Origin: Myxococcales bacterium
Lineage (GTDB): Bacteria; Myxococcota_A; Polyangia; Polyangiales; Polyangiaceae
Reading direction: 5' to 3'
Assembly: GCA_020430845.1 (NCBI GenBank)
Contig: JAGQJA010000425.1
Coordinates: forward strand, 1-44,199
Length of the DNA: 44,199 bases
Shown here: piece by piece, positions 20,475 to 38,105 of the stretch
Numbering within the stretch: position 1 is the stretch's first letter
How the letters are laid out: every line of letters begins with the position of its first letter
The notes under the pieces: generated by a model
What the model was told of the DNA's origin: nothing
Seen by the model: the letters and a program-made list of their open reading frames with translations, nothing else
Database searches by the model: none
Position numbers and translations under genes: made by a program

Positions 20475-20554
20475 GGTCCTGAAACCATTGGTCTTTTTTG
20501 GCGCTCGGAGGGTGGCCCGACCGATGCAGAAGGGCGCCTTGGGAGGTGGGCATC

Positions 20555-22863: not shown

Positions 22864-23034
22864 TCACTCCGCGCCCGGCGGAGGCCACGAGCGGCTGCGC
22901 CAGCGCTGGGTCACCGGGTCTCGTTCGTAGACACACTGCACGGTGGGCTCCTCGTCCCAGTCGACGACTTGCGCGCTCGTCGAGAGCGTGTCGTCGTCGT
23001 CCCAGTCTTCTCGTGGTCGGTCGTGATCCGGCAT
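22864..23034 (-). CDS. 56-aa acidic small protein, CVYERDP family
   Basis: ATG 23034 follows AGGAGG by 5 nt, a strong reason to prefer it over the longer 67-aa frame. The N-half is acidic (REDWDDDD). The C-half carries VDWDEEPTVQCVYERDP, then RWRSR and the Pro-Gly end PPPGAE. The 50-aa protein at 37953-38105 has the matching EDWDAAPTSKCVYERDP, WRLR and KPGE. There is no signal peptide or membrane segment, so it is probably cytoplasmic. Function is unknown. It belongs to the minus arm of the Tad-like locus, 45 nt downstream of the secreted protein gene and 3 nt from the membrane-protein gene. Confidence 0.75.
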   Translation of the reverse strand: MPDHDRPREDWDDDDTLSTSAQVVDWDEEPTVQCVYERDPVTQRWRSRSWPPPGAE

Positions 23035-23079
23035 GACGCCCTCCTGCGCTCGGGTGTGCGTGTCCATGGTTTCGTGTCG

Positions 23080-23745
23080 TCAGAGTCGGGTTGGACCGCG
23101 AGGCGTGCGCCTCGGCGGGTGCCGCGGCGACTTGGTCAGCTCGAAGGTCTGCTCGATCGCGACGACATCGTCGCGATCAGCGGGGACGAATGTGAGTACG
23201 GGGCTCGCGGGCCGGAGCTTGGAGTCGCGGGCGCTCGTGTCGAGCGTGAGCGCGACGGGCTCGTTCGGCTTCAACCGCAAGAGCACGTGACCCACTCCGT
23301 CCTCGTCGGTGCGACCGATCACCTGACCGAGGTGGACGATGGGGAGCGAGCCCCCGTTGCGCGCGCGCACGCCCACCACGACCGTGCGCACGAGCGGAGA
23401 GCACCGAGCGTCGAAGCGCGCCGCCGGCGAGTTGCCGGACACTCGCCGCAGCGCGACGTGCAGCGGCGCGGGGGACGCGTACCCGTCTGGGCACGAGACA
23501 CGGAGCTCCACGCGCTCACCATCAGCGCCGCGCAGGACGACGCTCGCACGGCCGCGCGCGTCGGTGACGCCGACCGGCCCGATCGCCGTGGCGAGCTCGA
23601 CGCCCACGAGCGCTTTTCCCGGATCGGAGACGGCGAGCACGTCGACCGACATCTCCACCGCGCCCGGAGTAGGCTCCGGCGTCGCGCCACCGCAAGCCGC
23701 GCCGAGCGTAGCGAGGAAAAACGCCGTGGCGAAGCGCGTGCTCAT
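23080..23745 (-). CDS. lipoprotein with Ig-like/PEGA-like beta-domains
   Basis: 221 aa. The signal peptide MSTRFATAFFLATLGAAC gives lipobox GAAC at residue 18. The mature protein appears all-beta: a first domain with GVELATAIGPVGVTDARGRASVVL, typical of carboxypeptidase-regulatory-like repeats, a disulfide candidate (SCPDG, ARCSP), and a second domain GQVIGRTDEDGVGHVLLRL of the same repeat style. The C-terminus is basic. Its ATG overlaps the upstream stop by 4 nt. As a lipoprotein in the minus Tad arm it may assist the outer-membrane part of the apparatus, which is inference. Confidence 0.75.
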   Translation of the reverse strand: MSTRFATAFFLATLGAACGGATPEPTPGAVEMSVDVLAVSDPGKALVGVELATAIGPVGVTDARGRASVVLRGADGERVELRVSCPDGYASPAPLHVALRRVSGNSPAARFDARCSPLVRTVVVGVRARNGGSLPIVHLGQVIGRTDEDGVGHVLLRLKPNEPVALTLDTSARDSKLRPASPVLTFVPADRDDVVAIEQTFELTKSPRHPPRRTPRGPTRL

Positions 23746-24722
23746 CGGGCAATCTCCACGTGGATGTCGCGCACCGCGGCCACTGTCTCGACGGCGCTGA
23801 CGACGCTCCTCCGACGGGAGTCACCCGTTGGACGGATCGAGACCAAGACCTCTGCGCCGTCGGCGCGCACGAACGCGCGAGCGCCAGACGTCCACGGGGC
23901 GGCCGGTACAAAGCCGGACGTGCCGAGCGCCCGCTCAGCGTCCGCCCTGAGCTCCTCTCCGCGGGCCTCGGACTCGTACAGCCAGACGCCAGCGGGGAAT
24001 CCGTCGAGCGATGCCGAAAGGGTTCGGCGACTCCGAATGGGCCTCGGCAAGAACATCGGATCGGTCCCCGGCGCGTCTCCTGACGCGGGGAACATGCGCG
24101 CAACGTCCAGGGCTCCGTCCGTCCATACCGTCACGACGCGCGTATCGCGCGTGCGACGCTCCGCGAACGCGTATCTGAAGCGCCCGAGCTGGGACAGGTC
24201 ACCCGTGCGCCCGAACGCGTCGAGCCTCCGCGAGAGCGCCGGGAGATCCCCCCGGTCGCCGGGCTCGCCCACGAAGCACGCCACCATACCTCTCGCGCCT
24301 GTCGCGTCTCGGATCACTCCGGCGCGAGCAGGGTCGGCCTTGTCGATCGGGATTCGCCCTTCGAGAGCGGCGGGAACGTCGCTCAGCGCGTGCCCGAGCG
24401 CCGACGGGGACTCCCGACAATAGCTCTCGAAGCGGTCGAGGACATTCTCGACGCTCAGAGGGGTCCGCGCGCTTGCCCAGTGCACTTTTGCGCCGTTGAC
24501 GCGCACGAGATACGCGCCGCTCGTGAGGTCTTCGAGCTTGGCGAGGTTGTGTCCGACCCCCATGCTCACCTCGCGTGCGTCGGCACGCACCGACCGCGCG
24601 CCTACCGCGGCCGCGCAGCCGAAGACGAGGGCTGCGTACGCCGAGACCCGCACCGCTTTCATCGACGGAGCGAGCGCACGCGTCACGCGAGCTAGGGAGT
24701 ACTTGGGCGGGAGCGGGGTCAT
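23742..24722 (-). CDS. exported protein of the Tad minus arm, unknown
   Basis: 326 aa from ATG 24722, 8 nt after the TadE-like stop; ATG 24662 would give a shorter signal peptide (MKAVRVSAYAALVFGCAAA, cleavage near VRADA). The mature part has two similar alpha/beta halves. Cys pairs are few (YCRES, ACFVG). The text SMGVGHNLAKLEDLTSGAYLVRVNGAKVHWAS is unlike any family I know. Its end overlaps the next lipoprotein gene (ATGA). Position suggests a periplasmic accessory factor of the pilus system. The function cannot be inferred from the sequence. Confidence 0.72.
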   Translation of the reverse strand: MTPLPPKYSLARVTRALAPSMKAVRVSAYAALVFGCAAAVGARSVRADAREVSMGVGHNLAKLEDLTSGAYLVRVNGAKVHWASARTPLSVENVLDRFESYCRESPSALGHALSDVPAALEGRIPIDKADPARAGVIRDATGARGMVACFVGEPGDRGDLPALSRRLDAFGRTGDLSQLGRFRYAFAERRTRDTRVVTVWTDGALDVARMFPASGDAPGTDPMFLPRPIRSRRTLSASLDGFPAGVWLYESEARGEELRADAERALGTSGFVPAAPWTSGARAFVRADGAEVLVSIRPTGDSRRRSVVSAVETVAAVRDIHVEIAR

Positions 24723-24730
24723 CTCGTATC

Positions 24731-25258
24731 TCAGAAGGCGCTCAACACGGCGTCGACCATGCCCTCGTAGCGATCTTCGGGGGTCGCGTCGCCGCAGACG
24801 ACATACGAGGACGTCGCCACCTTTGCGCTGAAACCTGTGTCGGCTGCTGCAGGGCCCGGTTGCGTGCTTGCGGCGGCGCGCCCCGTGATCGACACCTCGG
24901 CCACGCTGTCTGCGCCCGCGGTCTGGTTCTTGTCGCGGGCCCTCCCGAGGATGTCGCCCCCCCCGCCAGTGCCCCGCGGCACTACATCGAACGGCACCCC
25001 CTCGAGCGTCCGCGTCGAGACTGCCCGGCGGCCCACCTCTGGAGCGGACGCCGCGTCTGGATCTCCACGGCAGGCGCCCATCGCGTGTCCGAGCGCCGCG
25101 GCCCGCGCGATACGTTGTGTGCGTAGCTTTTCAGTGTAGAGCACACGAAAATAGGTCAGCCCCACGAAGGCGATGACGAAGAAGGTGATCACGATGACCG
25201 CCTCCACCATGACCGCCCCCCGCGCGCGTGGGCGCGGCCTGCGCCCGCGGGGCGTCAA
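24731..25258 (-). CDS. TadE-like pseudopilin
   Basis: 175 aa from TTG 25258, which overlaps the upstream stop (TTGA) and yields the basic N-terminus and ARGAVMVEAVIVITFFVIAFVGLTYF expected of TadE-type pseudopilins: a short charged leader, Gly-Ala processing region, Glu at +5 and a long hydrophobic helix. ATG 25206 (MVEAV) is an alternative start but would remove the leader. The remaining ~120 residues are periplasmic, with Cys in ACRGD and VVCGD. It would be processed by the prepilin peptidase at 30854 and act as a minor component of the pilus tip or base. Confidence 0.8.
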   Translation of the reverse strand: MTPRGRRPRPRARGAVMVEAVIVITFFVIAFVGLTYFRVLYTEKLRTQRIARAAALGHAMGACRGDPDAASAPEVGRRAVSTRTLEGVPFDVVPRGTGGGGDILGRARDKNQTAGADSVAEVSITGRAAASTQPGPAAADTGFSAKVATSSYVVCGDATPEDRYEGMVDAVLSAF

Positions 25259-26883
25259 TGGATCCCCCTCGCGCCCGAAGCCCGCACCGCGCGATCGAGC
25301 TCCGCGCGCAGCTTTGGGTCGGGGCCGTAGAGCCCCGCTGAGCCGCGCGAGAACGGCGTGGGGTCGAACGAGGGAGCCCGGCCGAGACCCATCATGGCGA
25401 TCGCTTGCGGCAGCGGTGCCGGCTCGTTCCAGCGACGGAGGCGGGCGCGCCAGCTCAGGTGCCACATGGCCTCCTCGTCGTCGTTGCACTCTGCCCAACC
25501 TCCGCCGCAGTCGAAGAAGAACTCCGCCTGGGCCCACGACGGGAGGCTCGCGCCGATCGGGGCAACGCCTCCCGTCGCCCTCTTCCCCGCTCCGACGCGC
25601 ACCAGCGCGCCGGACCTGCGCAGTCGTGAGGCGTCGACGAGCGCGCCCCCGCCCACCTGCGCCTTCGGACTGCCGTTGTAGAATGTGGATGCGGTTTGCA
25701 TGGGGCGTATCAGGCCCTCGGGGCGCACTTGCCCTTGCGGGACCTGCTTGTTCGACAGCTCACGCTGCTCGCGTTGGCGCCGCTTCATGTCGTCCTTGGC
25801 CCATGAGGCGCAGTCGTCCTGTTTGGACGAGGGCACGTCGCCGCCGAAGCGGTCGCGCAACTCCTTGCGTCCCCGGCCGTCCTGGTCGCGAAGCAGCCGC
25901 AGCCGGTCGAGCTCGGCCTGCCGTGCGGCAGAGGTCGTACCCGCCTGACTCCCGGCGTCGAGCGGCGCGCCGCGCTCGTCTTCGCCTCGGCACGTCACGC
26001 CGTACTCGCGGCACTTGTCCTGCCAACGCCTGTTCGAGTCGGAGAGCGCTTGGTCGTCGGCCTCGGGCTGGTTGGCACATCGTTGCTTGGCCGGCTCCTC
26101 GAAGAGCTCGTCGATGTTGGCGTCACCCTTCTCCGAGCCGATCTCGCAAAAGTGCTTGGGGCTCGTGGTCGCGACCCAGGCGAGCTTGTCGCCGAGCCAC
26201 TTCTTGGGCTCCCCGCCCACTGCACCGAGGCCCGCGTTCTCGAAGGCGTAGCCGCCGAAGTATCCGACCGTGCGGCCAGCCTCCTTGCAGAGCTTGTCTT
26301 GGGACCCGCGTTCGACCGGCAGGGAGGTCTCGCTGCCGAAGTGCGCTGCGCCGGTCGCCTCGATCACGGGCGCGTACTTCCCTCCGATCATGACCGCGGC
26401 GCCGGCGCGGGCTGCCGACGGGGTCGCGCTCGATATCCCGTCTTGGGTGAACCGGAGGCCGACGAGCGCGGCGTTGATGGGCTCGCGCGTCGTGTTGATC
26501 GCTTGCTCGAGGAGCCCCGCGCCCGTGAGGCATGGACCGACCAATGCCCAGAACGCCGGCATCACAAAGCCGAGCGCACCGAACACGCTCGCCCCGATCA
26601 GCAGAACGGCCTGCGCGATCTTGAGCGCGACGCGCACCCCGAGCACGCACGCCATCACGAGGTTGACCATGACGATCAAGTTCATGCCCCGCGCGTGCAG
26701 CGCGGCGTCGCTGAAGGCCATCGCGTCGGCGGCCTCTTGCGCCCGCTCACGCGCGAGGGCCGCGTCGCCCACTCCAGCGAGGTACCAGAGCGCGCCGACC
26801 AGGCACGTGCACATGAAGATGCCCATCACCATGATCGCGCCGCGCTCGTCGCGGTGGATCGCGGGGGAGTCAACGGTACACAT
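25255..26883 (-). CDS. TadG-like Flp pilus assembly protein
   Basis: 542 aa from ATG 26883 (AAGGAG 7 nt upstream). The N-terminus HRDERGAIMVMGIFMCTCLVGALWYL followed by RERAQEAADAMAFSDAAL is the TadG-type helix and its usual QxAADAAA-like continuation. Unlike standard TadG it has further hydrophobic segments at about 65-85 and 95-130 (LIVMVNLVMACVLGV, VLLIGASVFGALGFVMPAFWAL). No von Willebrand domain with a MIDAS motif is evident. The large periplasmic part has paired Cys (FDCGGGWAEC, KCREYGVTC). It overlaps the TadE gene by 14 nt. It is probably a Tad-machine tip or anchor protein. Confidence 0.78.
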   Translation of the reverse strand: MCTVDSPAIHRDERGAIMVMGIFMCTCLVGALWYLAGVGDAALARERAQEAADAMAFSDAALHARGMNLIVMVNLVMACVLGVRVALKIAQAVLLIGASVFGALGFVMPAFWALVGPCLTGAGLLEQAINTTREPINAALVGLRFTQDGISSATPSAARAGAAVMIGGKYAPVIEATGAAHFGSETSLPVERGSQDKLCKEAGRTVGYFGGYAFENAGLGAVGGEPKKWLGDKLAWVATTSPKHFCEIGSEKGDANIDELFEEPAKQRCANQPEADDQALSDSNRRWQDKCREYGVTCRGEDERGAPLDAGSQAGTTSAARQAELDRLRLLRDQDGRGRKELRDRFGGDVPSSKQDDCASWAKDDMKRRQREQRELSNKQVPQGQVRPEGLIRPMQTASTFYNGSPKAQVGGGALVDASRLRRSGALVRVGAGKRATGGVAPIGASLPSWAQAEFFFDCGGGWAECNDDEEAMWHLSWRARLRRWNEPAPLPQAIAMMGLGRAPSFDPTPFSRGSAGLYGPDPKLRAELDRAVRASGARGIH

Positions 26884-27433
26884 ATCGCGCTCCTTGGTAC
26901 GGAAAGGCGCTCTCGGCGCGGATGCGGCGCACTTGTCGCCCGGCCGATCCTCGTTCGCACGCGACGCGATCGGCGAGCGCAATCTTGCACACGACGTCGA
27001 CCTCGACGCGCACGCGCACCATCTGCGGAGGCCCCACTGCCAACGGTGTGAGCGGAGCGTCGACCCCGAGGTCGGGGCCGCCGGGCATCGTCGCGTCCGG
27101 GAAGAACAACTCGACGCGGTCCACGGAGCCGTCGAGGATGGCAGGCGCGAGCGAGATCAACGCAGCCTCGCGCACGGCCCGCCTTCGCTCCGCGCTCAGC
27201 GTGTGCACGCCGCTGGCTCCGTCGCCGTACGCGTCTGCCGAGTCGGCGAAGACGACGGCCGCCGCGCGCGCGCTCTGCACCGCGGCGTGGTCGACGAGCA
27301 GCCTCTGCGAGTAGAGCAGCGCTAGCTGCAGGAGGCACAAGAAACAGACGAACACTGGCATGAAGGCGACGAGGAACTCGACGTACACCGCGCCGCGCGT
27401 GTGGCGGTGCAAGTCCGCAGGAGAAATGGGCAT
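26870..27433 (-). CDS. TadE-like pseudopilin
   Basis: 187 aa from ATG 27433. HRHTRGAVYVEFLVAFMPVFVCFLCLLQLALLYSQRLLVDHAAVQSARAA is a textbook TadE N-terminus: positively charged leader, processing after Gly, Glu at +5, hydrophobic helix and the HAAxxAARAA-type heptad. The periplasmic domain contains RVRVEVDVVCKIALADRVAC, with a probable disulfide. The open frame extends upstream to 27523, but that part is unlike the family. It follows the Flp pilin gene after a 92-nt gap that contains a hairpin. Confidence 0.85.
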   Translation of the reverse strand: MPISPADLHRHTRGAVYVEFLVAFMPVFVCFLCLLQLALLYSQRLLVDHAAVQSARAAAVVFADSADAYGDGASGVHTLSAERRRAVREAALISLAPAILDGSVDRVELFFPDATMPGGPDLGVDAPLTPLAVGPPQMVRVRVEVDVVCKIALADRVACERGSAGRQVRRIRAESAFPYQGARYVYR

Positions 27434-27480
27434 GGCCAAGGCGCAGCTCCGTCGCGCCGGTCCTGGGTACGGGGCGAGCG

Positions 27481-27503
27481 TCGCGAGTGCGCGGCTCTCG
27501 CGA
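27481..27503. other. hairpin between Flp pilin and TadE genes
   Basis: TCGCGAG pairs perfectly with CTCGCGA over a 9-nt loop. It lies 22 nt after the pilin stop. It could stabilise the pilin mRNA or partly stop transcription, so that the pilin is made in excess of the minor components. Confidence 0.5.
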
Positions 27504-27525
27504 TCACGCGCGCCCGCCCGCACCG

Positions 27526-27729
27526 TCAGTTGCCCGCCTGATCGTTCAGGCCCGTGACCGCGCCGCCCTGATTGCGCACCTTTGCCGTGACGGAGGTGCC
27601 AAAGAACTTGAAGCCGCCGATGCAGAGGATCGCGACGACGCCGACGAGGATGATGTACTCGACGAGGTTCGCGCCGCGCGTGCAGCGATGGAAGTCGCGG
27701 ACATTGTTGACTGAATTCGACGTGTTCAT
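27526..27729 (-). CDS. Flp-type (type IVb) pilin
   Basis: 67 aa from ATG 27729; AGGAG lies about 10 nt upstream. A 17-residue hydrophilic leader ends in CTRG, then ANLVEYIILVGVVAILCIGGFKFF: Glu at +5 and Tyr at +6 after the Gly, the hallmark of Flp pilins. A short soluble tail follows. It would be cleaved by the prepilin peptidase at 30854 and form the fibre of the Tad apparatus. It is first in the minus arm and is divergent from the metallopeptidase gene. Confidence 0.93.
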   Translation of the reverse strand: MNTSNSVNNVRDFHRCTRGANLVEYIILVGVVAILCIGGFKFFGTSVTAKVRNQGGAVTGLNDQAGN

Positions 27730-27900
27730 AGCGTAGGGGCTCCTGCAGTTGTGATTCGCGCGCGCACCGAGCCGAATGCCAGGAACGTCACGCGACATCC
27801 GCACCTGTCGGTCAGGCTCTCCCGGTGTTGCGCAGAACGTGGAACGGACGGCGCGCAACTCCCTGCGCTCGCCGCCGATGGGCGTCGCGGAGGTCACCGC

Positions 27901-29946
27901 ATGCACGTCTCACGTATTCGTCGTCTCTTCCTCTCCGCACCGCTGCTCGTCGCCTGCGCGACGGGAGCCGGCTGCGGCTCCGAGCCCGACACGGCGCCGG
28001 ACCTCGCCGCTCGACTGGAAGAGGACACCGGGGTTTCTTGGACCGTCGTACGCGATCCGTCGAGCCACGAAGTGACGTTCATGGCACCTGCGAGGGCGGT
28101 CAAGGTCGGCGATGGTCCGCCAGAAGACGTGGCGCGAGCGTTCTTCATCAAGTATCGCGACGCGCTCCACGGCACGGGGAGTCCGCTCGAGCTTCGGGCC
28201 CAGGTGAGAGACGCCGATCCCAACGGGGCAAGCCACGTCCGCTTTCTGCACTTCGTCCCCGGGACCGAGATCGCTGTGCACGAGGCCGCGACGACGGTCA
28301 CGTTCAACGCTACCGGGGAGTTCGTCTACGCCATGCCGAGCTTCCGTGAGGGGGTGGGCGCGGTCGACCCGAAGCCCACGGTCTCGGAGACCGAAGTCGG
28401 TGCGCGAGCGAACGCGCTGGCGTTGCGTGAGTGTGCGCTGTCCGACGAGGCGTCGCTGAAGGTGCGCAACATCGAGCTGATCGCTCTGCCGCGCGATGGT
28501 CGCGCTCCCACGCTCGCGTGGCGCGTGGACTGGCGAATCGAGGGAGGTTCGTGCGCCGCGCCCGAGGCGCTGATCGACGCGACCACGGGCGACACGCTCG
28601 GCTTCCGGGAGACCGCGGAGAGAGTGCTCGATCAGGCTACCGGCGTATGGTTCCACCACGGCAACGATCCGAACGACCGGAAGTGGATCGATGTCTCGCC
28701 GGATGACCAAGGCGGATGGGTTTTGGTCAAGAACGGCACGGTGAAGGTCTCGACGCAGACGCACGCGCCGGGGTGGGCAGGGCTCCGGCGCGACATCCAC
28801 ACCAAGACGCTCGGGAGCTGGACGTCGTCGGCGTCGGTCCGCGGGGCAGAGGTCGACGCACACCACAACATGGTCCGGGCCGTCACGTTCTTCGAAGAAG
28901 CGTTCAAGCTCAAGGGCCCCGACGGGATGGGAGGCCCCGTTGCTGTGGTGGTCCACTCACCAGACTTTCCGAACGACGATTGCAACGCCTACTTCACGCC
29001 TGCAGGCAAGCTCGCCAAGGGAACGCTGATACGCGTCTTGGACGGGAACTTTTTCAAGGTCGGGAAGCAGGCCGGGACCTGCCTCCCGCTCACGAGCTTC
29101 GACGTCATGGTCCACGAGGCCTCGCACAGCGTGACGGAGCACACCTCGTCGCTCGTCTACAGGCAAGAACCCGGCGCCCTCAACGAGTCGTTCTCCGACG
29201 TGATGGCGGCGTACGCGGCACACCGTGCGCTCGAGAGCGACGAGGACGCGTTCAAGATCGGCAAGCGGGGAGACCTGACCGGCATAGTGTTCAGGAACAT
29301 GCTCGACCCGAGCCTGCCCACGAATCCGAACAACCCGCAGTCCGCGAGCGTGGCCCACGTCTCGAACATGCCCGCGTGCGCGACGCCGACAGCCGGCAAC
29401 GACATGTGCGGTGTCCACAGGAACTCCGGCATCCCCAATCGCGCCTTCAGCCTCATGGCCGTGGGCGGCCAGCACGCTCAGAGCAAGGTCTGGGTGCGGG
29501 ACGCGCTCGGATGGCAGCGCGCATCGGAGCTCTGGTACCGGACGCACATCAGGTTGAGCCCCACTGCGAACTTCCTCGCCATGGCGAACGCACAGGTTGC
29601 GTACGCAGTTCAGTTCATGCCAGACGCGCTGGCCGGCGTCGCGTGTGCGTGGAGGGCGGTGGGCGTCTTCGGTGGTGCGAACACCAATGCCGAGCCGGCT
29701 GCGATCACCTCGCTCACATGCCCGTCGCTCGCCGCCCCCTCTACGCCGTCGTGGCTCGAGCCGTGCGGCAACGTGAAGGACGGCTTCGCGTGCAACCCAT
29801 TCTTGAGCTTCTCGGGGCATCAGTGCGTCGGCGGACAGGCGAAGTCGACGCTTACCTGCGCCGGGCTCCAACGCTGCAAGCACCCTTCTTCATCCGACTG
29901 GACCGCCACGCTCGCCCCCGACGGCACGCTCGTGTGCGAGAACTGA
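27901..29946 (+). CDS. M4 (thermolysin-like) metallopeptidase lipoprotein
   Basis: 681 aa; GGAGG 7 nt before ATG. The signal peptide ends at GAGC (Cys25), consistent with a lipoprotein. Residues ~30-240 are an FTP/PepSY-like inhibitory propeptide. The catalytic region has HEASH (405-409, zinc ligands and catalytic Glu406), third ligand Glu429 in GALNESFSDVMA, and His506 in CGVHRNSGIPNRAF, matching the thermolysin His231 motif, so it appears active. A Cys-rich C-terminal part of about 60 residues follows. It heads the plus arm of the Tad-like locus, opposite the Flp pilin gene. It could trim pilins, clear a path in the cell wall, or be a cargo. Confidence 0.93.
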   Translation: MHVSRIRRLFLSAPLLVACATGAGCGSEPDTAPDLAARLEEDTGVSWTVVRDPSSHEVTFMAPARAVKVGDGPPEDVARAFFIKYRDALHGTGSPLELRAQVRDADPNGASHVRFLHFVPGTEIAVHEAATTVTFNATGEFVYAMPSFREGVGAVDPKPTVSETEVGARANALALRECALSDEASLKVRNIELIALPRDGRAPTLAWRVDWRIEGGSCAAPEALIDATTGDTLGFRETAERVLDQATGVWFHHGNDPNDRKWIDVSPDDQGGWVLVKNGTVKVSTQTHAPGWAGLRRDIHTKTLGSWTSSASVRGAEVDAHHNMVRAVTFFEEAFKLKGPDGMGGPVAVVVHSPDFPNDDCNAYFTPAGKLAKGTLIRVLDGNFFKVGKQAGTCLPLTSFDVMVHEASHSVTEHTSSLVYRQEPGALNESFSDVMAAYAAHRALESDEDAFKIGKRGDLTGIVFRNMLDPSLPTNPNNPQSASVAHVSNMPACATPTAGNDMCGVHRNSGIPNRAFSLMAVGGQHAQSKVWVRDALGWQRASELWYRTHIRLSPTANFLAMANAQVAYAVQFMPDALAGVACAWRAVGVFGGANTNAEPAAITSLTCPSLAAPSTPSWLEPCGNVKDGFACNPFLSFSGHQCVGGQAKSTLTCAGLQRCKHPSSSDWTATLAPDGTLVCEN

Positions 29947-29956
29947 GGAGCCGACG

Positions 29957-30643
29957 ATGTTCATCCGACTCATCGTGCTCTCGGCGTGCGCCGCTCTGCT
30001 CGGCGACTGGGGCTACACCGGCGTCGTCGACCCGCTCGTGCCCTTCAAGGAGATCGAGTTCGGCACTGCGGTCCCCGACGACTACCCCGCGTGCGCCGCC
30101 GCGCAGATTCCGCCCGGCGCGATCGCGGTGGCCGATGTCTCCCCGTCCGCCGCAGAGCAGACGCGCATCCAGCGGAGCTTCGGCATGTTCGTGCGCATCC
30201 GCGGCCAGGCGACGCTCTTCGCGGACGGGCACGTCGAGCGAACCGTGGTCATCGGCGACGTGAGTCGAGAGGTCCGCGAGCACGTCAGCTATCGCGTCGA
30301 TCCGGCGGCCGTCGCCAGGCTGCTTGCAGACCTCGACGACGCCGGCATCGCCAAGCAACCCAGTCGCTGCTGGCTTCGGCGGCGTGATCCTTCGGTACCC
30401 TCGTGCTGGGGCCCGCCCGACCCCACGGGCACGCGGGTCCTTCTGCGGCGCGGAGAGCAGACACATGATCTGCAAGTGCTCAGCCGGAACTGGGGTCCTG
30501 AGTACCCGGCACCGAAGGCGCTCGCGCGCATATTGGATGTCTGGCGAGCGTTCTGGGCAGGGCCGGGCATGCCGCCCGGCGCCACACCGGAGGCCGCAGC
30601 GCAGCCCGGACCGATTGCTCCCGCGGTCTCGCCTGGTGGGTGA
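29957..30643 (+). CDS. unknown exported protein (possibly DUF6438-like)
   Basis: 228 aa with GAGGAG 6 nt before ATG, 10 nt after the metallopeptidase stop. A short hydrophobic start (FIRLIVLSACAALL) may be an export signal. The core VRIRGQATLFADGHVERTVVIGDVSREVREHVSYRVDPAAVARLLADLDDAGI resembles small domains in which a strand pair is followed by a helix, as in DUF6438; this match is weak. A CW-CW pair (RCWLRRR, SCWGPP) may form a disulfide. The C-terminus is Pro/Ala-rich. Co-transcription with the protease suggests a partner or inhibitor, which is inference. Confidence 0.65.
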   Translation: MFIRLIVLSACAALLGDWGYTGVVDPLVPFKEIEFGTAVPDDYPACAAAQIPPGAIAVADVSPSAAEQTRIQRSFGMFVRIRGQATLFADGHVERTVVIGDVSREVREHVSYRVDPAAVARLLADLDDAGIAKQPSRCWLRRRDPSVPSCWGPPDPTGTRVLLRRGEQTHDLQVLSRNWGPEYPAPKALARILDVWRAFWAGPGMPPGATPEAAAQPGPIAPAVSPGG

Positions 30644-30691
30644 GACGGCGCCACGACGCAACCGCCGCCATCGGCGGCCGATACGGGACAC

Positions 30692-30847
30692 ATGGACGCA
30701 CGAGCGCGCGGCGCGGCGACGGTCGAATACACGGTGCTCGTCGGCGCGGTCGCGTTGTGCGCGTCCGTCGCGCTGATCGGGCTCGGCGTCGCCTTCCTCG
30801 AGAGCTTCGAGCAAGTGCGCGGTCTCGTGCTCTACCCCTATCCCTGA
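30692..30847 (+). CDS. 51-aa Flp-like pilin (very short)
   Basis: Found by direct reading. ATG 30692 opens MDARARGAATVEYTVLVGAVALCASVAL and so on, ending LVLYPYP. The leader is only seven residues, then the processing site G/AATVEY with Glu +5 and Tyr +6, and one hydrophobic helix. There is no clear Shine-Dalgarno, but the motif is too characteristic to be chance. It lies 6 nt before the prepilin peptidase gene, its presumed processing enzyme. It differs from the 67-aa Flp pilin of the minus arm, so the apparatus has two pilins, one perhaps minor. Confidence 0.85.
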   Translation: MDARARGAATVEYTVLVGAVALCASVALIGLGVAFLESFEQVRGLVLYPYP

Positions 30848-30853
30848 GGTCAT

Positions 30854-31405
30854 GTGATCCCGTTCCTCGTCATCGCCACGCTCGTCGCGACGGTCGCCGC
30901 CGTCACCGATCTTCGATCGGGACACATCCCCAACCGTCTCACCTACGGCGCGCTCTCGTTCGGTGTGGGCGCGCACTTCGCGCGTGGCGCCGTCTGCGGC
31001 GATCTCTCCGACGGCGTGACGGCCGGCGCGCTCGCGGTCGCAGGTGCGGCCGCGTGCGGGGCCGTCCCACTCTTCATGTTCTCCCGCGGCGCGATGGGCG
31101 GAGGTGACGTGAAGCTCTTCGCCGCGATCGGCGCGCTCCTCCAACCCCTCGGCGGACTCGAGGCCGAGACGTACGCGTTCGTCGCCGCGGCCTTGGTGGC
31201 CCCCGCGCAGCTCGCGTGGCAGGGCAAGCTCGCCCGGACGCTCGCGCACACGGCCCTGCTCATCACCAACCCGCTCCGCAAGGCCGAGGATCGACGGCCC
31301 GTGCCCGAGTCGATGCGCGCATGGTTCCGACTCGGCCCGGCGGTCCTCGTGGGCATGGTGGCCTCGCTGCTCGTCCACGGTGCTCCTCTCGTGGGGAGCC
31401 GATGA
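30854..31405 (+). CDS. prepilin peptidase, TadV/CpaA type (A24)
   Basis: 183 aa starting at GTG 30854 with GAGGT just upstream. A polytopic membrane aspartyl protease carrying both active-site motifs: TDLRSGHIPN after the first helix and GGGDVK in the cytoplasmic loop. The short length without an N-methylation domain is typical of TadV. It should process both Flp pilins and the TadE/TadG-like proteins. It ends in an ATGA overlap with the CpaB gene. Confidence 0.93.
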   Translation: MIPFLVIATLVATVAAVTDLRSGHIPNRLTYGALSFGVGAHFARGAVCGDLSDGVTAGALAVAGAAACGAVPLFMFSRGAMGGGDVKLFAAIGALLQPLGGLEAETYAFVAAALVAPAQLAWQGKLARTLAHTALLITNPLRKAEDRRPVPESMRAWFRLGPAVLVGMVASLLVHGAPLVGSR

Positions 31406-32181
31406 AGCCCCGCCCCCTCTTCGTCGGCCTCGTCGTGGGGCTGGTCGGGGCCCTCGTCCTGGTGCTGTACCTCCGACGCCTCGAGCTCGAGGCGGCCGGT
31501 GGCAAGAAGGTCGCCGTGCTCGTCGCCGTAGAGACGATCGGCCGCGGCAAGACGATCACCGAGTCGATGCTCGGGACCCGTGACATCCCCGCCGCATACC
31601 TCGATGAGCGGGTCGTGCGCGCCGCCGACAAGGACAAGGTCGTGGGCCTGCGTGCGACCATGACGGTGCCCGTGCAACAGGGCCTCGCGTGGTCGGACGT
31701 GATGGCCCCCAAGGACGATGAGCGCGCCCTCAGCGCTCTCGTTCAGCCAGGCTCTCGCGCCACTCCGATCCGCGTCGAGATAACGGACGTCCTCGCCCTC
31801 GTGCGGCCTGGCGACTTCGTCGACATCGTCTGCGTCTGCGGCGAGTCGAAGGACGCTGCTGTCCTCTTGCAGCGGGTGCTCGTCCTCGCCGCGGGGACGT
31901 CGACCGCGGCGCCCAAGGGCGACGGACGTGAATCGGCCGCGCAGCGACGCGTCACGGTGCTCACCGTGAGCGTCTCCCTGCAAGAGAGCCAGCTCCTCGC
32001 TGTCGCGATGGAGAAGGGCAAGCTCGCCGTCGCCGTCCGTAACCCGACTGACCCTCGCATTACCGAAGCGCCCACGGATGTGAGCGCACAAACCCTGACC
32101 GACTCGAGTCGACGTCAAGCGCTCCAAGGCGCCCGGCGCCCGGCGCGCGGCGGTCCCATCGAGCTGAAGGAAACCAAGTGA
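31402..32181 (+). CDS. cpaB: Flp pilus assembly protein CpaB/RcpC
   Basis: 259 aa. An N-terminal membrane anchor (PLFVGLVVGLVGALVLVLYL) precedes the SAF domain (VAVETIGRGKTITESMLGTRDIPAAYLD) and the RcpC/CpaB domain with ALSALVQPGSRATPIRVEITDVLALVRPGDFVDIV, a family hallmark. It sits in the periplasm and probably links the inner-membrane platform to the secretin, perhaps by binding peptidoglycan. It overlaps both neighbours by 4 nt, so the prepilin peptidase, CpaB and secretin genes are translationally coupled. Confidence 0.93.
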   Translation: MKPRPLFVGLVVGLVGALVLVLYLRRLELEAAGGKKVAVLVAVETIGRGKTITESMLGTRDIPAAYLDERVVRAADKDKVVGLRATMTVPVQQGLAWSDVMAPKDDERALSALVQPGSRATPIRVEITDVLALVRPGDFVDIVCVCGESKDAAVLLQRVLVLAAGTSTAAPKGDGRESAAQRRVTVLTVSVSLQESQLLAVAMEKGKLAVAVRNPTDPRITEAPTDVSAQTLTDSSRRQALQGARRPARGGPIELKETK

Positions 32182-33530
32182 ACATCTCGCGTCGAATCGG
32201 GTACGGGGCGACCGTCGCCCTCTCCCTGGCTGCCCTCTCGCTCTTCGTCCCCCGCGTCGCGCAGGCCCAACCTCCGCGAGACCGCGCGGGCGAGACCGCC
32301 CGCGACGGAGAGGAGATCGCGCTCGCCGTCGGCGAGACCAGGACGATCTCGGCGCGCGACGTCAAGAACTTCTCCGAGGGCGCTGCGGGGGTCATCGAGA
32401 TCAAGCTGACCTCTGACAACAACCAGTTCGTCCTCAGCGGCAAGCGCGCGGGCTCGACCACGATGCTGCTCATCAAGAACGACGGCTCGCAGGTCACGCT
32501 CAACATCCACGTCTTTCCGCGTTCGCCTGCGGCGGTGGAGAAGGAGCTCGCGCAGCTGCTCGACGGGCTCGGCTCCGTGCGCGTGCGGAGAGTCGGCGCG
32601 CGCATCGTGATGGATGGCGTCGTGTCGACCGAGGCCGAGCTCAAGCGGGTGCAACACGTCGCGTCGCTCTACCCCAACCAGGTCGAGTCCCTCGTCACGC
32701 TCCCAGGTGGCGGCGGAGCGGCCGTCGACGAGAACAGCAAATACATCGTCCGCATCGACTTCTACTTCGTCCAGTACGACAAGAACTCGAGCTACGGCGT
32801 CGGGCTCGCTTGGCCTGGCAGCGTGGGCGGCGACGCCGTCGTCAAGAGCGCGGTTTCGTTCGACTTTGTCGGGGGTAGCCGCGCGGCGACGGCGAGCATC
32901 ACCAACCAGCCGCTGCCGCGCCTCGATATCGCTTCGCGCCGCGGCTGGGCCAAGGTGCTCAAGCAGGCGACGGTCGTCACCAACAATGGCGTCGAGGCGA
33001 ATTTCGCAAACGGCGGCGAGCAGAACTTCTCGGTGACGCAGGGGCTGACGGTCGGCGTGCAGCGCATCGCGTACGGCACCGACGTCACCGTGCTGCCGCG
33101 CTACAACGCGAGCAAGCGCGAAGTGGAGATGAAGCTCGTGGCGGATGTCAGCGATCTCACCGCGTCTGCTTCGGGCTCGAGCCTCCCGAGCCGCACGACC
33201 TCGAAGCTGACGACCAACATCACGCTCAAGCTCGGACAGTCCATCGTCTTGTCGGGCATTCGTTCGAGCTCGCAGCAGCACCAAGTCTCTGGGTTGCCCG
33301 GTCTCAGCGACATCCCGGTCCTGGGCGTGCTGTTCGGCTCTCACGCCAACCAGGAGCTCGAGACCGAAGGGGCCGTATTCGTCGTCCCGAGCGTCGTCGA
33401 GGCCGTCCCCGCGGCTGCTTCTGAGATGGTCGACGCGGCACTGTCCAAGTTCGGCGACTACAGCGGCAACATCGCCAAGGTCCAAGCCTACGACAAGGCT
33501 CCTGGCGCCCCGCCTTCCGTGCCGCGATGA
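32178..33530 (+). CDS. cpaC: Tad secretin CpaC/RcpA
   Basis: 450 aa from GTG 32178 (GTGA overlap). The signal peptide ends at AQAQ. The BON/pilus-assembly N-domain (LAVGETRTISARDVKNFSEG) is followed by NKYIVRIDFYFV-like N-domain and the secretin core ending SIVLSGIRSSSQQHQVSGLPGLSDIPVLGVLFGS, the typical VxGxPxLxxIPxLGxLF secretin signature. It forms the outer-membrane channel. In most tad operons the CpaE and CpaF genes come next, but here the TadB gene follows directly, with a 4-nt overlap. Confidence 0.94.
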   Translation: MNISRRIGYGATVALSLAALSLFVPRVAQAQPPRDRAGETARDGEEIALAVGETRTISARDVKNFSEGAAGVIEIKLTSDNNQFVLSGKRAGSTTMLLIKNDGSQVTLNIHVFPRSPAAVEKELAQLLDGLGSVRVRRVGARIVMDGVVSTEAELKRVQHVASLYPNQVESLVTLPGGGGAAVDENSKYIVRIDFYFVQYDKNSSYGVGLAWPGSVGGDAVVKSAVSFDFVGGSRAATASITNQPLPRLDIASRRGWAKVLKQATVVTNNGVEANFANGGEQNFSVTQGLTVGVQRIAYGTDVTVLPRYNASKREVEMKLVADVSDLTASASGSSLPSRTTSKLTTNITLKLGQSIVLSGIRSSSQQHQVSGLPGLSDIPVLGVLFGSHANQELETEGAVFVVPSVVEAVPAAASEMVDAALSKFGDYSGNIAKVQAYDKAPGAPPSVPR

Positions 33531-34390
33531 GCTCTGCCGCGCCGTCGTCCGTCCTCCTCGCGCTCGCGGTGGGCCTCGTCGCGTTGTCGCTCGCGCTCGT
33601 CGCGTACGGTCTCGCGGCAGGCCCGACACCGGCGTCGCGCGCGTACGAGCGGTACGTCGCGCACCTGGACACGAGCTTCAGGCTGCTGTTCATGCCACGT
33701 CGAGGTCGCCTCGTCGCCCGGGCTCAGCTCACTTTCGTCGTCGCCCTCCTCCTCGCGAGCGCCGCGACGGACGTACCATACACGGCGGCGTGGATCGTCG
33801 TCGCGATGGCCGCGCCTACCGTGTACCTGGCGCACCGGCGCGCGCAGCGGCTGGAGGCGCTCGAGGAGCAAGTCGACGGCTTTGTCCTTGCGCTCGCCAA
33901 CGCGCTGAAGACGGTGCCGAGCCCCGCGGCGGCGCTCGAGGCGACCGTGCCCGTGCTCCCGAGCCCGACGGCGCAGGAGATCGAGCTAGCGCTCAAGGAG
34001 GTCCGCGTGGGGAGCTCCCTCGAGGACGCGCTCATCGCCATGAGCGCTCGCATCCGGAGCCGCTGGGTCGACGTTGCCGTCTCTGCCGTGCTCATCGGTA
34101 TGCGCGTCGGCGGAAACCTACCGCAGTCCCTCGAGCGCACGGCGAGCATGATCCGCGAAATTCATCGTCTGCTCGGAGTGGTCCGCGCGCGCACGAGCCA
34201 AGGTCGCGCGCAGCTCTGGGTGCTCGCGCTCTTTCCGGCCTTCGTGCTCCTGGGGTTCAACGCGGCCCAGCCCGGCTACTTCGATCCTTTGCAGAGCACG
34301 CTGGCCGGTCAGATGTGCGTCGGGGTCGCCACTGCTCTCTGGATCGCGTCTCTCCTCGTCGGTCGCAAGATCCTTTCGGTGGACGTATGA
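33527..34390 (+). CDS. tadB: TadB-like inner-membrane platform protein
   Basis: 287 aa. Two N-terminal membrane segments (about 8-28, 62-85), a T2SSF domain with LANALKTVPSPAAALEATV and GSSLEDALIAMSARIRSRWVDVAVSAVLIGMRVGGNLPQSLERTASMIRE, then two C-terminal membrane segments. It normally works with TadC and the CpaF ATPase to extrude pilins. It overlaps the secretin gene by 4 nt and the TadC gene by 4 nt. Confidence 0.92.
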   Translation: MSSAAPSSVLLALAVGLVALSLALVAYGLAAGPTPASRAYERYVAHLDTSFRLLFMPRRGRLVARAQLTFVVALLLASAATDVPYTAAWIVVAMAAPTVYLAHRRAQRLEALEEQVDGFVLALANALKTVPSPAAALEATVPVLPSPTAQEIELALKEVRVGSSLEDALIAMSARIRSRWVDVAVSAVLIGMRVGGNLPQSLERTASMIREIHRLLGVVRARTSQGRAQLWVLALFPAFVLLGFNAAQPGYFDPLQSTLAGQMCVGVATALWIASLLVGRKILSVDV

Positions 34391-35289
34391 ACCAGCTCGC
34401 CGTCTTGCGCGCCGGTCTCGTCGCGACGTCGTTCGTCGTGCTCTTCGGCGTCGGGGTGCTCGCTGCGTCTGCTCCGACGCGCGCGGCTCGCCGCACGGGC
34501 ATGCGAGGCATGAAGAGACAACAGGCGCTGGCACGAGGCGGCCTGTTCGGGGCGATCGAGCCCTTAGTGCGCTGGCTCGGCCTGCGCCTCACGCGCTTTG
34601 TCAGTCCGCAACTCCAAGCGTCCATCGACCGACAGGTTGCCATGGCCGGCGACTTCCTCGGACTCTGCGCAGAAGAGATGCTCGCGCTGTCGGTCCTGTG
34701 CGGCGTCGTCGGCGCCGCGGCAGGCGCAGCTGCGAACGCCATCGTACACCTCGGACCGATGCTCGCGGTTGCGGTCGCGGCCTTCGGCATGGTGTCGCCG
34801 TTCATGACGCTCTCTTCGGCGGCGGCCGATCGGATGAAGGCCGTGACCCGGCGCCTGCCCGCGGCGATCGACCTTCTGGCCCTGTGCATGGGGGCCGGGC
34901 TCGACTTCCCAGGGGCCCTCCGACAGGTCGTTGAGCGTTCTGGTACGCCCGACGACCCAGTCATCGAGGAACTGTCGCTCGTGCTCGTCGGGCTGTCGCT
35001 CGGGCGGACGCGCCAGCAGGCGCTCGAAGACTTTGCTCTGCGGGCGCCGGTGCCCATGGTCCGAGAGCTCGTCGCGTCCGTCGTCCAGGCCGAGCTGCGA
35101 GGCAACCCGCTCGCGGACGTGCTCCAGATCCAGGCCGAGGTCTCGAGGCAGAAGCGCACCGTGCTCGGCGAAGAAGCCGCGTCCAGCGCGGCGGTCAAGA
35201 TGATCGGCCCCCTGGTGCTGCTCTTCCTCGCCATCCTCGTCCTCATCGTGGGGCCGATGGTCCTGGCCCTCAAGGCGCAAGGGATCTGA
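34387..35289 (+). CDS. tadC: TadC-like inner-membrane platform protein
   Basis: 300 aa from ATG 34387 (ATGA overlap with TadB). Membrane segments at about 5-27, 95-120 and the C-terminus surround a T2SSF domain: RRLPAAIDLLALCMGAGLDFPGALRQVVERSG and MVRELVASVVQAELRGNPLADVLQIQAE. It is the partner of TadB in the platform. Three nt separate its stop from the next ATG. An ATPase partner is not encoded in the window. Confidence 0.92.
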   Translation: MNQLAVLRAGLVATSFVVLFGVGVLAASAPTRAARRTGMRGMKRQQALARGGLFGAIEPLVRWLGLRLTRFVSPQLQASIDRQVAMAGDFLGLCAEEMLALSVLCGVVGAAAGAAANAIVHLGPMLAVAVAAFGMVSPFMTLSSAAADRMKAVTRRLPAAIDLLALCMGAGLDFPGALRQVVERSGTPDDPVIEELSLVLVGLSLGRTRQQALEDFALRAPVPMVRELVASVVQAELRGNPLADVLQIQAEVSRQKRTVLGEEAASSAAVKMIGPLVLLFLAILVLIVGPMVLALKAQGI

Positions 35290-35292
35290 GCG

Positions 35293-36144
35293 ATGAGTGA
35301 CGAAATCACCCTGTGCGTGACGCGGAACGGCAAGCCGGCCGAGCGCGTCGTCGTCCCGATCGGCCGCGCGCTCATCGGGAGCGCCGCGCATTGCGATCTG
35401 AGGCTCTCTCCAGACGAGGCCGCGCCCGAGCAGATGGTGCTCGCGTGCGACGGAGACGGCGTGCGGGTGCACTACGTCGCGCCGTCGCCCGTCGTCACCC
35501 ACCGTGGCGCGCCGATCATGCCGTCGCGCTTCGTCGTCCCGTGCTCCTTCGAGCTGGGCGCGACGTCGGTTGTCGTCGAGCGTCCGGCCATCGAGGCAAG
35601 CGCACCCAGGCGATTCGACCCCGCGCTCGCCGCCAAGCTCGTCGTGCTCGGCGTCCTCTGCGCGGCCGTTGCGTTCGCGTCGACGCTGCACGTGGAGACC
35701 GCTGGGCCGCCGACCGCGGAGCTCCCGGACGTCTTCGCCGGAGCCGACGTCGCGTGTCCGCATGTCGATCCGACGCGTGCGCTCGCCGAGGCCGTGGAAC
35801 GACGCGCTGTGGCCGATGCGGCACGCGAACGTAGCCCGTTCGAGCCGCGCGAGGTGCGGCCCGCGGTCGCCGCGTATCGGGTCGCGGGCGCCTGCTTCGA
35901 CCGGGCCGGGGCCGAGACCGAGGCCCGCCGCGCCGCGTCGGCCGCGGCCGAGCTGGAGGCGGACGCTCGCCTCGAGCTCCGCGCGCGTCGCATCCGGCTC
36001 GAACGAATGCTCGCCGCGCGCGACTTCGATGTGGCGCGGGACGATGTCACCTATCTGCGGGCCGTGCTCTCCGGAAAGGGCGGGCCGTACGTCGCGTGGC
36101 TCTCACAAGTGGAACTAGAGCTGAGAAACGAGAAGAACGAATGA
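35293..36144 (+). CDS. degenerate FHA-domain membrane protein
   Basis: 283 aa. The N-terminal ~100 residues follow the FHA strand pattern: VVVPIGRALIGSAAHCDLRLSPDE and so on to ELGATSVVVERP. The canonical Gly-Arg pair reads IGS, and the Ser-x-x-His segment is replaced by APEQ, so binding of phosphothreonine is doubtful. One membrane segment (AAKLVVLGVLCAAVAFAST) separates it from a helical periplasmic part rich in Arg, Glu and Ala that resembles a TPR or coiled-coil. It overlaps the TPR lipoprotein gene by 4 nt. It may replace part of the missing CpaE/TadZ function. Confidence 0.75.
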   Translation: MSDEITLCVTRNGKPAERVVVPIGRALIGSAAHCDLRLSPDEAAPEQMVLACDGDGVRVHYVAPSPVVTHRGAPIMPSRFVVPCSFELGATSVVVERPAIEASAPRRFDPALAAKLVVLGVLCAAVAFASTLHVETAGPPTAELPDVFAGADVACPHVDPTRALAEAVERRAVADAARERSPFEPREVRPAVAAYRVAGACFDRAGAETEARRAASAAAELEADARLELRARRIRLERMLAARDFDVARDDVTYLRAVLSGKGGPYVAWLSQVELELRNEKNE

Positions 36145-36713
36145 AGGCGTCGTATTGTGTGGTGTGGATGACGTTCGCGGGTGTGCTCGCGGGCTGCGCG
36201 GCGCCCCAGGGGCGCGTCGCCAAGGAGCTTGCAGCGATGAGGGACGACTCTCGCGCCGACGAGCTCCAGAGCCGAGGCACTTCGGCCGCAGCGCTCGGCG
36301 ACATGACGCGCGCGGAGCAATACTTCGTGGCCGCGCTCAGGGCTGGTGCAGACGCGCACCAGGTCGTCCCCCGACTGATCGCCGTCTGCGTCGCCGACGG
36401 CCGCTATCCCGTCGCGCTCGACTACGCCGAGAGTCATCTGAGGAATCATCCCGACGACGTCGACGTGCGGTACGTGGCAGCGACGCTGCACGCAGCGACC
36501 GGGAACGCCGAAGAGGCCCGCCGCGAGCTCCGAGCGGTGCTCGCTCTCCGTCCGAACGTCGCCGAGGCGCACTATGCGCTTGCCACGCTGGAGAAGTCAC
36601 GCGGTGAGATCATGGCGGCCGACGCCGAGTTCCGAGAGTACTTGCGCCTCGCCCCCGCGGGCGCCCACATCGAGGTCGCGCGCGCCAACCTCATGCGCAG
36701 GGTGCCCCGATGA
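36141..36713 (+). CDS. TPR lipoprotein, TadD-like
   Basis: 190 aa. The signal peptide WMTFAGVLAGC gives lipobox LAGC (Cys19). Four TPR-like helical pairs follow (GTSAAALGDMTRAEQYFVAALRAGAD; YPVALDYAESHLRNHPDD; TGNAEEARRELRAVLALRPN; GEIMAADAEFREYLRLAPAG). TadD proteins are TPR lipoproteins needed for secretin assembly in Tad systems. Start and end overlap the neighbouring genes by 4 nt (ATGA on both sides). Confidence 0.88.
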   Translation: MKASYCVVWMTFAGVLAGCAAPQGRVAKELAAMRDDSRADELQSRGTSAAALGDMTRAEQYFVAALRAGADAHQVVPRLIAVCVADGRYPVALDYAESHLRNHPDDVDVRYVAATLHAATGNAEEARRELRAVLALRPNVAEAHYALATLEKSRGEIMAADAEFREYLRLAPAGAHIEVARANLMRRVPR

Positions 36714-37948
36714 GCGCCGCGTACACGCGTCATGAGGCGATCCCGCTCGGCGACGCAGACAGGAGCGGCAAGCGCGTCGTGCGCCGGCGCGACAGCCACC
36801 CGGAGCGAGCCAGCGTATTCGTGGACCTGCTCTCGGGGCGAAGTCCGCGTCGGGGGGTCTCGTTCGAGGAGGGCACTTCGGCTCCACCGCTCACGCTCGG
36901 CTCACTTGGCGCATGGTCCGTCGACGCTCGCGATATCGCGCCCATGCACGGGGCGATTGCATGGAATGGTCGGGTGCTCTTCGTCGCCGCGCTCTCGGAC
37001 GCGGCAGTGAACGTCGAGGGGGTCGACATCCGCGGGCGCGGGTGGGTGGAGGTCGCGCCCGGACGCGTCATCGAGCTCGGCGGTGCGCGCCTCCACGTCA
37101 CGCGCCGCGGGCCGCCGGGCGAAGCGAATCCGCCCGAGCCGCTCTGCGCCTCATCATCGTCGATCACGCGGTACGCCCCGCTCACCACCGCGCGCGACGC
37201 ACCTATGGCGTCCGCGCCGTCGAGCACCGTGCCCCTCTCGGAGCCCGCAGCCCCGATCACCGTGCGCACTCCGCCACGCACCCAGCCGGTCGATGTGCCG
37301 ATGGTGCAACCACCGCCGCTCGACGCGCAAGTAGCACCAAGACGCCTTCCTCCACGCACGCTCCTCACCGGCGTCGCCCGCGTCGCTCAAGCGTCCGCGC
37401 GTCCGCGCTCCCTACCGCCGCCGTTGCCGCCGCACGCCCAACGCCGCCCGCCCGCGGCCGTGCCGCCGGCCGTTCCCACGCCGCCACGCGTGGACCGAGC
37501 GCGTGTCGCGTGGTCCCATCTACCGCGCGCCCATCGCCTCGCGGCGCTGGTGAGCGTGCCCGCGCTGTTGCTGGCTTTCATGTTCTTCGCGTTCGCGATC
37601 ACGCGTGTCGTGCACCAGCAGCACCTGGCTGCCGGGGCCGGACCCACGCATGCGCCCGCCGGAGCGCCGTCGTCCCATTCTGGCGCCGCGCCCGCGTCCG
37701 CTCCGGCGACGGAACCATCGCCGACGCCCGCGGCGACTGCGTCCATGCCAGCCACGCCAGCCCCCGGCGCGTCGACGTCCGAAGCGGGTGCTGCGCGTCG
37801 GGCGATCGAAGCCGTCGCTCGCGGCGACATCGACGACGCGGCCCACCGATACGCAGAGCTCGCAGCTTCGGAGCCCGACAACCGCGCCTACGTCGAAGCT
37901 GCGCGCATCACCGCCGAGCGCGCGGCGCAGCCGGCCGCGCAGATGTAG
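36710..37948 (+). CDS. second degenerate FHA-like membrane protein with C-terminal helical repeat
   Basis: 412 aa. Residues ~55-135 look like an FHA fold (LTLGSLGAWSVDARDIAPMHGAIAWNGRVLFV ... GRVIELGGARLHVTR). Again the key Arg reads Ser (LGS), although PMHG keeps the His. Then come a Pro-rich linker of ~130 residues, one membrane segment (ALVSVPALLLAFMFFAFAITRV), a second Ala/Pro/Ser-rich linker and a C-terminal TPR-like pair (RRAIEAVARGDIDDAAHRYAELAASEPDN). It is the last gene of the plus arm, with its stop only 4 nt from the convergent small gene. Confidence 0.75.
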   Translation: MSAAYTRHEAIPLGDADRSGKRVVRRRDSHPERASVFVDLLSGRSPRRGVSFEEGTSAPPLTLGSLGAWSVDARDIAPMHGAIAWNGRVLFVAALSDAAVNVEGVDIRGRGWVEVAPGRVIELGGARLHVTRRGPPGEANPPEPLCASSSSITRYAPLTTARDAPMASAPSSTVPLSEPAAPITVRTPPRTQPVDVPMVQPPPLDAQVAPRRLPPRTLLTGVARVAQASARPRSLPPPLPPHAQRRPPAAVPPAVPTPPRVDRARVAWSHLPRAHRLAALVSVPALLLAFMFFAFAITRVVHQQHLAAGAGPTHAPAGAPSSHSGAAPASAPATEPSPTPAATASMPATPAPGASTSEAGAARRAIEAVARGDIDDAAHRYAELAASEPDNRAYVEAARITAERAAQPAAQM

Positions 37949-37952
37949 TCGA

Positions 37953-38105
37953 TCACTCGCCCGGCTTGCACATGCGCAGGCGCCAGTCTCCCGTCTCGGG
38001 ATCGCGCTCGTACACGCACTTGCTCGTCGGCGCGGCGTCCCAGTCCTCGACGGACATCATCGACACCGAGTCTCGATCCAACCAAACCCGCGGCTCGCGC
38101 TCCAT
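37953..38105 (-). CDS. 50-aa small protein, CVYERDP family (paralogue of 22864-23034)
   Basis: Found by direct reading of the minus strand. ATG 38105 to TGA 37953 encodes 50 residues whose second half, EDWDAAPTSKCVYERDP, then TGDWRLRMCKPGE, aligns without gaps to VDWDEEPTVQCVYERDP, then TQRWRSRSWPPPG of the 56-aa protein at 22864-23034. The RBS is weak (AGAGGAA about 10 nt away). There is no signal or membrane segment. It is convergent with the last Tad-arm gene (4-nt gap). The shared core and position at the far edge of the same locus argue that it is real. Confidence 0.72.
   Translation of the reverse strand: MEREPRVWLDRDSVSMMSVEDWDAAPTSKCVYERDPETGDWRLRMCKPGE

Follow-up and report, generated by a model that had tools for sequence, protein, structure and literature searches.

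The window analysed here, namely the whole 44,199 nucleotides (nt) of contig JAGQJA010000425.1 (assembly GCA_020430845.1 of a Myxococcales bacterium), contains two small open reading frames (ORFs), termed P1 and P2, at the two edges of a gene block for a Tad-type machine. An earlier note on this DNA proposed that they represent a new family of about 50-residue proteins with a CVYERDP core. Both ORFs are confirmed on the minus strand, and their features are summarized in Table 1. As judged from the sequence, P1 and P2 are located immediately outside the conserved block, one at each end and in the same orientation. The earlier note placed P1 in the minus arm of the locus; P1 does lie at the edge of the Tad locus, but just beyond the last conserved gene (23080-23745) and not inside the conserved arm. 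P2 converges on the last plus-arm gene (36710-37948), as proposed, in a tail-to-tail arrangement with the stop codons 4 nt apart. P1 and the 22138-22860 gene are probably co-translated, because the ATG of the latter (minus strand) lies only 3 nt past the stop codon of P1. A promoter and terminator scan at P2 finds none.

Table 1. Positions of P1, P2 and associated features in the window
Feature	Position	Strand	Description	Basis
P1	22864..23034	minus	small protein of 56 residues (MPDHD...PPPGAE), conserved Cys34	ORF, AGGAGG site, synonymous divergence from P2
P2	37953..38105	minus	small protein of 50 residues (MEREP...CKPGE), paralogue of P1	ORF, codon comparison
AGGAGG ribosome-binding-like site	23040..23045	minus	5 nt before ATG of P1	sequence
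AGAGGA ribosome-binding-like site	38116..38121	minus	weaker; 10 nt before ATG of P2	sequence
P1 beta-hairpin, residues 33-50	22885..22938	minus	predicted strands 33-38 and 45-50	AlphaFold2, mean pLDDT 86 and 90 (blocks 31-40 and 41-50), pTM 0.30
P2 beta-hairpin, residues 28-48	37962..38024	minus	predicted strands 28-34 and 41-48	AlphaFold2, mean pLDDT 92 and 77 (blocks 31-40 and 41-50), pTM 0.31
Conserved Tad block flanked by P1 and P2	23080..37948	both arms	TadE/G-like genes (sub-threshold), CpaB, CpaC secretin, two T2SSF genes, TPR; Flp-type pilin and prepilin-peptidase-like	last two by eye
Last conserved gene of Tad minus arm	23080..23745	minus	lipoprotein-like start; P1 starts 45 nt past its end	start by eye
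Last conserved gene of Tad plus arm	36710..37948	plus	no Pfam FHA match	N-terminal matches of 30-35% in six genomes
Protein of 240 residues	22138..22860	minus	borderline hydrophobic stretch from residue 51; no Pfam or NCBIfam match	

Alignment confirms that P1 and P2 share DWD-x2-PT-x2-CVYERDP and WR-x-R, as the earlier note described, together with a T; the shared end consists of a P and a final E. An ungapped stretch exists as well, but it extends over about 30 residues (23-52 of P1 and 19-48 of P2) and not over the 35 claimed. The two proteins are 52% identical over 42 residues by blastp, with one gap and an E value of about 1e-9, and share 25 identities in 50 aligned codons (25 identical columns by MAFFT). 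These 50 codons comprise 14 identical ones, 11 with synonymous differences and 25 with residue changes, so that 11 of the 25 identical residues are encoded by different codons. The differences number 14, 19 and 29 at the three codon positions. Within CVYERDP, six of the seven codons differ, all at the third position and all synonymously, and no residue is changed. The nonsynonymous (dN) and synonymous (dS) divergences by NG86 are 0.45 and 1.95 over the 50 codons (dN/dS about 0.23) and 0.29 and 2.31 in the core, values that are noisy at such length. The earlier note had named a lack of purifying selection in this comparison as a refutation; the comparison instead supports purifying selection on P1 and P2 as a pair of homologous small proteins. 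The difference at the third position is 0.58 (29/50) between P1 and P2, compared with 0.37-0.50 between four Tad genes and their counterparts in G006 (G-numbers denote compared genomes and L-numbers loci). This result suggests that the two copies are older than the split from G006 and that a recent duplication is unlikely, although the error is large with 50 codons. For an old pair to be confined to one lineage, there must have been losses, acquisition by transfer from a source not sampled here, or rapid evolution, none of which is preferred.

No copy other than P1 and P2 rises above noise in the host genome (8.56 Mb in 806 contigs, 88.68% complete). A profile search of this genome detects them at E values of 1e-34 and 1e-29, and the next match has an E value of 0.37. 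The profile searches, whose E values are per genome, scored a limited number of candidates from each genome (150 for the genus, 61 for the family, 20 for the class and 17 for the phylum), so that a weak relative could be missed. No convincing relative is found in the 11 other genomes of the genus (12 including its own; best E 0.037). Among the 107 other genomes of the family (108 including its own), the best E value is 0.017, and 13 genomes give E <= 0.1, which is noise level. For the order, only codon patterns were searched: that of CVYERDP, taken exactly, is present in 1 of 183 genomes, twice, both copies being those of the window, and the looser [YF]E[RS]DPxTxxW pattern is likewise confined to the window. 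One other genome of 317 in the class sample gives a match at E <= 0.002, and three others of 377 in the phylum sample do so at E <= 0.01; because E is per genome, these counts are about what chance gives. Two scans of the GTDB r220 contigs give no relative; such scans need a matching short peptide and could miss a much diverged relative (metagenomes were not searched). Of three peptide-seeded scans of viral sequences, two likewise give no relative and the third gives only two short matches to P2, both taken as chance: in L118, an ERDPETGD stretch lies within a protein of 676 residues, and in L119 no complete ORF carries the match, the frame running to the locus end with a best domain of 11.4 bits. 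Phages, queried with P2 only, give no match, and plasmid matches at E values of 0.9 and 0.4 are taken as noise. Pfam, NCBIfam and PADLOC give no match to P1 or P2 at E <= 1, and PHROGs gives only E values of 0.49 and 0.052. Eighteen noise-level loci inspected by alignment (L004, L006, L008, L033, L035, L038, L040, L048-L051, L053-L055, L120-L122 and L142) show short or partial matches, some of them inside much larger frames. Whether run with a single sequence or with a profile, the searches of relatives, genus, family, class and phylum give only noise apart from the window copies. The new family of the earlier note therefore stands as two homologous small proteins unmatched in Pfam, NCBIfam and PADLOC, but not as a wider family, because the searches made find no further homologue with the core, the outcome that the earlier note had named as refuting it. 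The literature searches made give no description of a CVYERDP protein, nor of such small proteins with Tad pili or in myxobacterial ribosome profiling. P1 and P2 look like a lineage-restricted pair, found so far only in this lineage. In this respect they resemble the orphan genes of bacteria, which the available passages of PMC1824705 describe as genes without homologues outside a narrow lineage; they differ from those in being two diverged paralogues kept at both ends of one machine locus.

P1 and P2 contain no hydrophobic segment (highest KD19 0.09) and have net charges of -9 and -4 respectively. They are probably cytoplasmic, because neither has a membrane segment, and they lack the hydrophobic helix after a prepilin cleavage site by which they could be Flp/Tad pilins. 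AlphaFold2 predicts for each protein a mostly irregular arm and one C-terminal beta-hairpin, the same hairpin being obtained whichever protein is placed first; local confidence in the hairpins is fair to high, whereas global confidence is low. A Foldseek search with this low-confidence model of P1 gives nothing at E <= 0.001. The metal or redox role suggested by the earlier note is unsupported, because P1 and P2 share one Cys and no His and thus have no clustered conserved Cys/His ligands.

The Tad block was compared with eleven loci fetched around related secretins and then with nine extensions, several of them partial. The 23080-23745 gene adjoins the orthologue of 23742-24722 in G006, G002, G001 and G009; the two orthologues are 2.7 kb apart in G088, and that of 23080-23745 lies elsewhere in the block in G115. 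N-terminal matches to the 36710-37948 gene follow the TPR gene in G006, G002, G001, G004, G088 and G121. In the orthologous Tad loci that were fetched, tblastn detects none of P1, P2, 22138-22860 and 38372-39172. The borders of G006, G002 and G001 hold no such pair, the best blastp E values being 0.31, 0.11 and 0.016, as compared with 8e-9 here. Relatives of the 22138-22860 protein are present as 31-40% matches in 13 of the 107 other family genomes. A conserved module of this gene and P1 was considered and rejected: no P1-like ORF is found upstream of the relatives, by eye or by profile, in 16 fetched loci, one of which is short. The 22138-22860 gene converges on the kinase ORF 20498-22300 (plus), and the two share 163 bases at their 3' ends (22138-22300).

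Several other features of the locus are recorded here. The ORF 30692-30847, encoding 51 residues (MDARARGAATVEYTVLVGAV...), is by eye, from its motif, a candidate for the Flp-type major pilin; it has no NCBIfam match at E <= 1 and is directly followed by a prepilin-peptidase-like ORF (30854-31405, by eye). The 35293-36144 and 36710-37948 genes have FHA-like N-terminal regions, which by eye seem to lack phosphopeptide-binding residues. An M4 (thermolysin-type) peptidase gene, 27751-29946, lies at the divergent centre of the block; its relatives are located after the 23080-23745 orthologue in L111 (36.5%) and beyond the plus-arm end in L129 (36%). The secretin gene and the first T2SSF gene have 4 nt in common (33527-33530). 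These two genes are adjacent in L107 and L108 too, and their matches are separated by about 1.7-2.1 kb in L109-L116. The T2SSE ATPase has no match (E <= 0.001) on the contig and 12 matches elsewhere in the host genome, and we infer that in this subclade the assembly ATPase appears to have relocated outside the Tad block. Near the contig end, the ORF 43856-44020 (minus, 54 residues, MGKFTATLSANASGLADIKAAC...) has the top codon score of 71 small ORFs of 45-75 residues. The Kil Tad-like system of Myxococcus xanthus has many accessory genes of unknown function and FHA proteins around its core, according to the available passages of PMC8460266. The locus resembles Kil as a Tad-type machine with accessory genes of unknown function, but differs from it in that a T2SSF gene comes right after the secretin gene and the contig has no match to a T2SSE ATPase. 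The same passages name no 50-residue CVYERDP protein.

It is extremely improbable that P1 and P2 are chance or non-coding ORFs. They are short, no homologue is found elsewhere and the codon score of P1 is neutral (-0.7 bits; that of P2 is +7.9 bits). Against the reality of the genes, the pair also ranks only 9th by raw bits, tied with the 8th, among the frame pairs of the window (406 stop-to-stop frames of 25-120 codons, with filtering and composition correction off), so that the raw score alone does not single P1 and P2 out. The codon pattern, unlike the raw score, does single out this pair, as all six codon differences in the core are synonymous, and the ribosome-binding-like site and gene spacing also argue for genes. 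The annotated frame has the best codon score of the six frames at both P1 and P2, which look like real genes by comparative evidence. A different explanation, somewhat unlikely but to be taken seriously, is that an ancestral small gene became duplicated as it was brought together with the Tad block, for example through a single-crossover integration that left a direct copy on either side. The pair would then have a job of its own unrelated to Tad, and its flanking position would be a scar. Consistent with this explanation, the copies have the same orientation with one immediately outside each block end, and no such pair is present at the borders of G006, G002 and G001. The sequences of 400 nt flanking P1 and P2 also score slightly above shuffles, the score being reached by 4 of 200 upstream and 1 of 200 downstream mononucleotide shuffles, in which codon periodicity is uncontrolled. 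However, the third-position difference makes the copies seem older than the split, and an ancestral uninterrupted locus is not found.

Two further explanations concern what the proteins bind or derive from. P1 and P2 could be phospho-switched ligands: the Ser/Thr kinase 20498-22300 would phosphorylate the conserved Thr of DWDxxPT, to which an FHA domain belonging to the Tad system would then bind. A kinase domain is present in 20498-22300, PT is conserved in both proteins, and an FHA-rich Kil Tad-like system is described in M. xanthus (available passages of PMC8460266). The FHA setting envisaged in the earlier note is weak, however: the 35293-36144 and 36710-37948 genes have no Pfam FHA match at E <= 2, the former giving only a sub-threshold match to Yop-YscD_cpl (E 0.0012). 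FHA domains have GR and SxxH as their signature, which both genes lack by eye. The residues around the Thr also differ (EEPTVQ versus AAPTSK). An FHA-ligand role appears weakened by these points and is improbable. A similarly low probability is given to the possibility that the hairpin was detached from a larger beta-rich protein, either a blade of an FG-GAP or Kelch-like propeller or a hairpin ahead of an L,D-transpeptidase-like domain. An FG-GAP_2 (PF14312) protein carries repeated VFERDPxTGxW, a hairpin-like V-F-E-R-D-P-x-T-x-x-W motif, and the designed chain 7pvp_A, presumably Kelch-like, is matched by summed weak repeats, none of them significant alone. The FG-GAP_2 repeats are located in a frame of 524 residues, whereas P1 and P2 have one hairpin each plus a Cys and the DWDxxPT segment, and no Pfam match. 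The L,D-transpeptidase-like protein of L142 is matched at E 0.0012 with the same W-YER-W spacing as the core of P1 and P2, and a profile of 16 of its relatives, from which the original hit was left out, gives single-test E values of 0.0005 for P2 (6.4 bits) and 0.006 for P1 (2.9 bits), the reversed sequences being weaker (0.07 and 0.14). The best of 7625 background ORFs nevertheless scores 10.0 bits on this profile, and the five best of about 5000 shuffles each outscore P2 (6.7-10.7 bits) and P1 (10.1-12.9 bits), so that the motif is read as a generic hairpin. The hhalign probability is 6%; the L142 protein itself matches YkuD only below threshold (E 0.04), and no relative of this protein is found in the host genome or its genus. 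For an L,D-transpeptidase origin a faint signal remains that does not exceed background, and the similarities to hairpins of FG-GAP, Kelch-like and L,D-transpeptidase proteins look like convergence.

The reading that we favour, tentatively and a little short of calling it probable, is that P1 and P2 are a lineage-restricted pair of soluble hairpin adaptors or regulators tied to the Tad block that they flank. They would be two real, anciently diverged paralogues, each with an acidic, mostly irregular N-terminal arm and one predicted C-terminal hairpin (CVYER / DPxTxx / WRxR). The hairpin may dock on a partner, for example by adding strands to its sheet, and the pair would act with the Tad block as accessory adaptors or regulators, P1 being co-translated with the 22138-22860 protein and P2 expressed separately at the other end. 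This reading is consistent with the synonymous divergence around an unchanged core, the AGGAGG site with the 3-nt spacing, the location of the sole two copies above noise in 8.56 Mb each at one edge of the Tad block, the same predicted hairpin in both proteins and the absence of a hydrophobic segment. Several points weigh against it. The codon score of P1 is neutral, the AlphaFold2 input is an alignment of two sequences and pTM is low. The orthologous Tad loci of genus-mates, several of them partial, lack P1 and P2, which are therefore not core Tad components, and the genes beyond the block differ at the two ends (22138-22860 and 38372-39172), so that no shared partner is visible. Local duplicates, moreover, often stay linked without a shared role. 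A more specific proposal, which is doubtful, is that P1 and P2 form a previously undescribed pair of hairpin micro-adaptors whose diverged copies have been retained at the two ends of a Tad/Kil-like machine in a single lineage. The pair would couple one arm of the locus to the other, for example by competing for a single Tad or kinase partner.

Synonymous divergence between two copies in the same genome can serve as evidence that an orphan small gene is real, even when it has no homologue elsewhere. The analysis adds a well-supported, previously unrecognised pair of small proteins to a Tad-type locus. If this pair acts on the Tad machine, it would offer a compact entry point for studying how the accessory genes around such systems, whose functions are unknown, regulate them.

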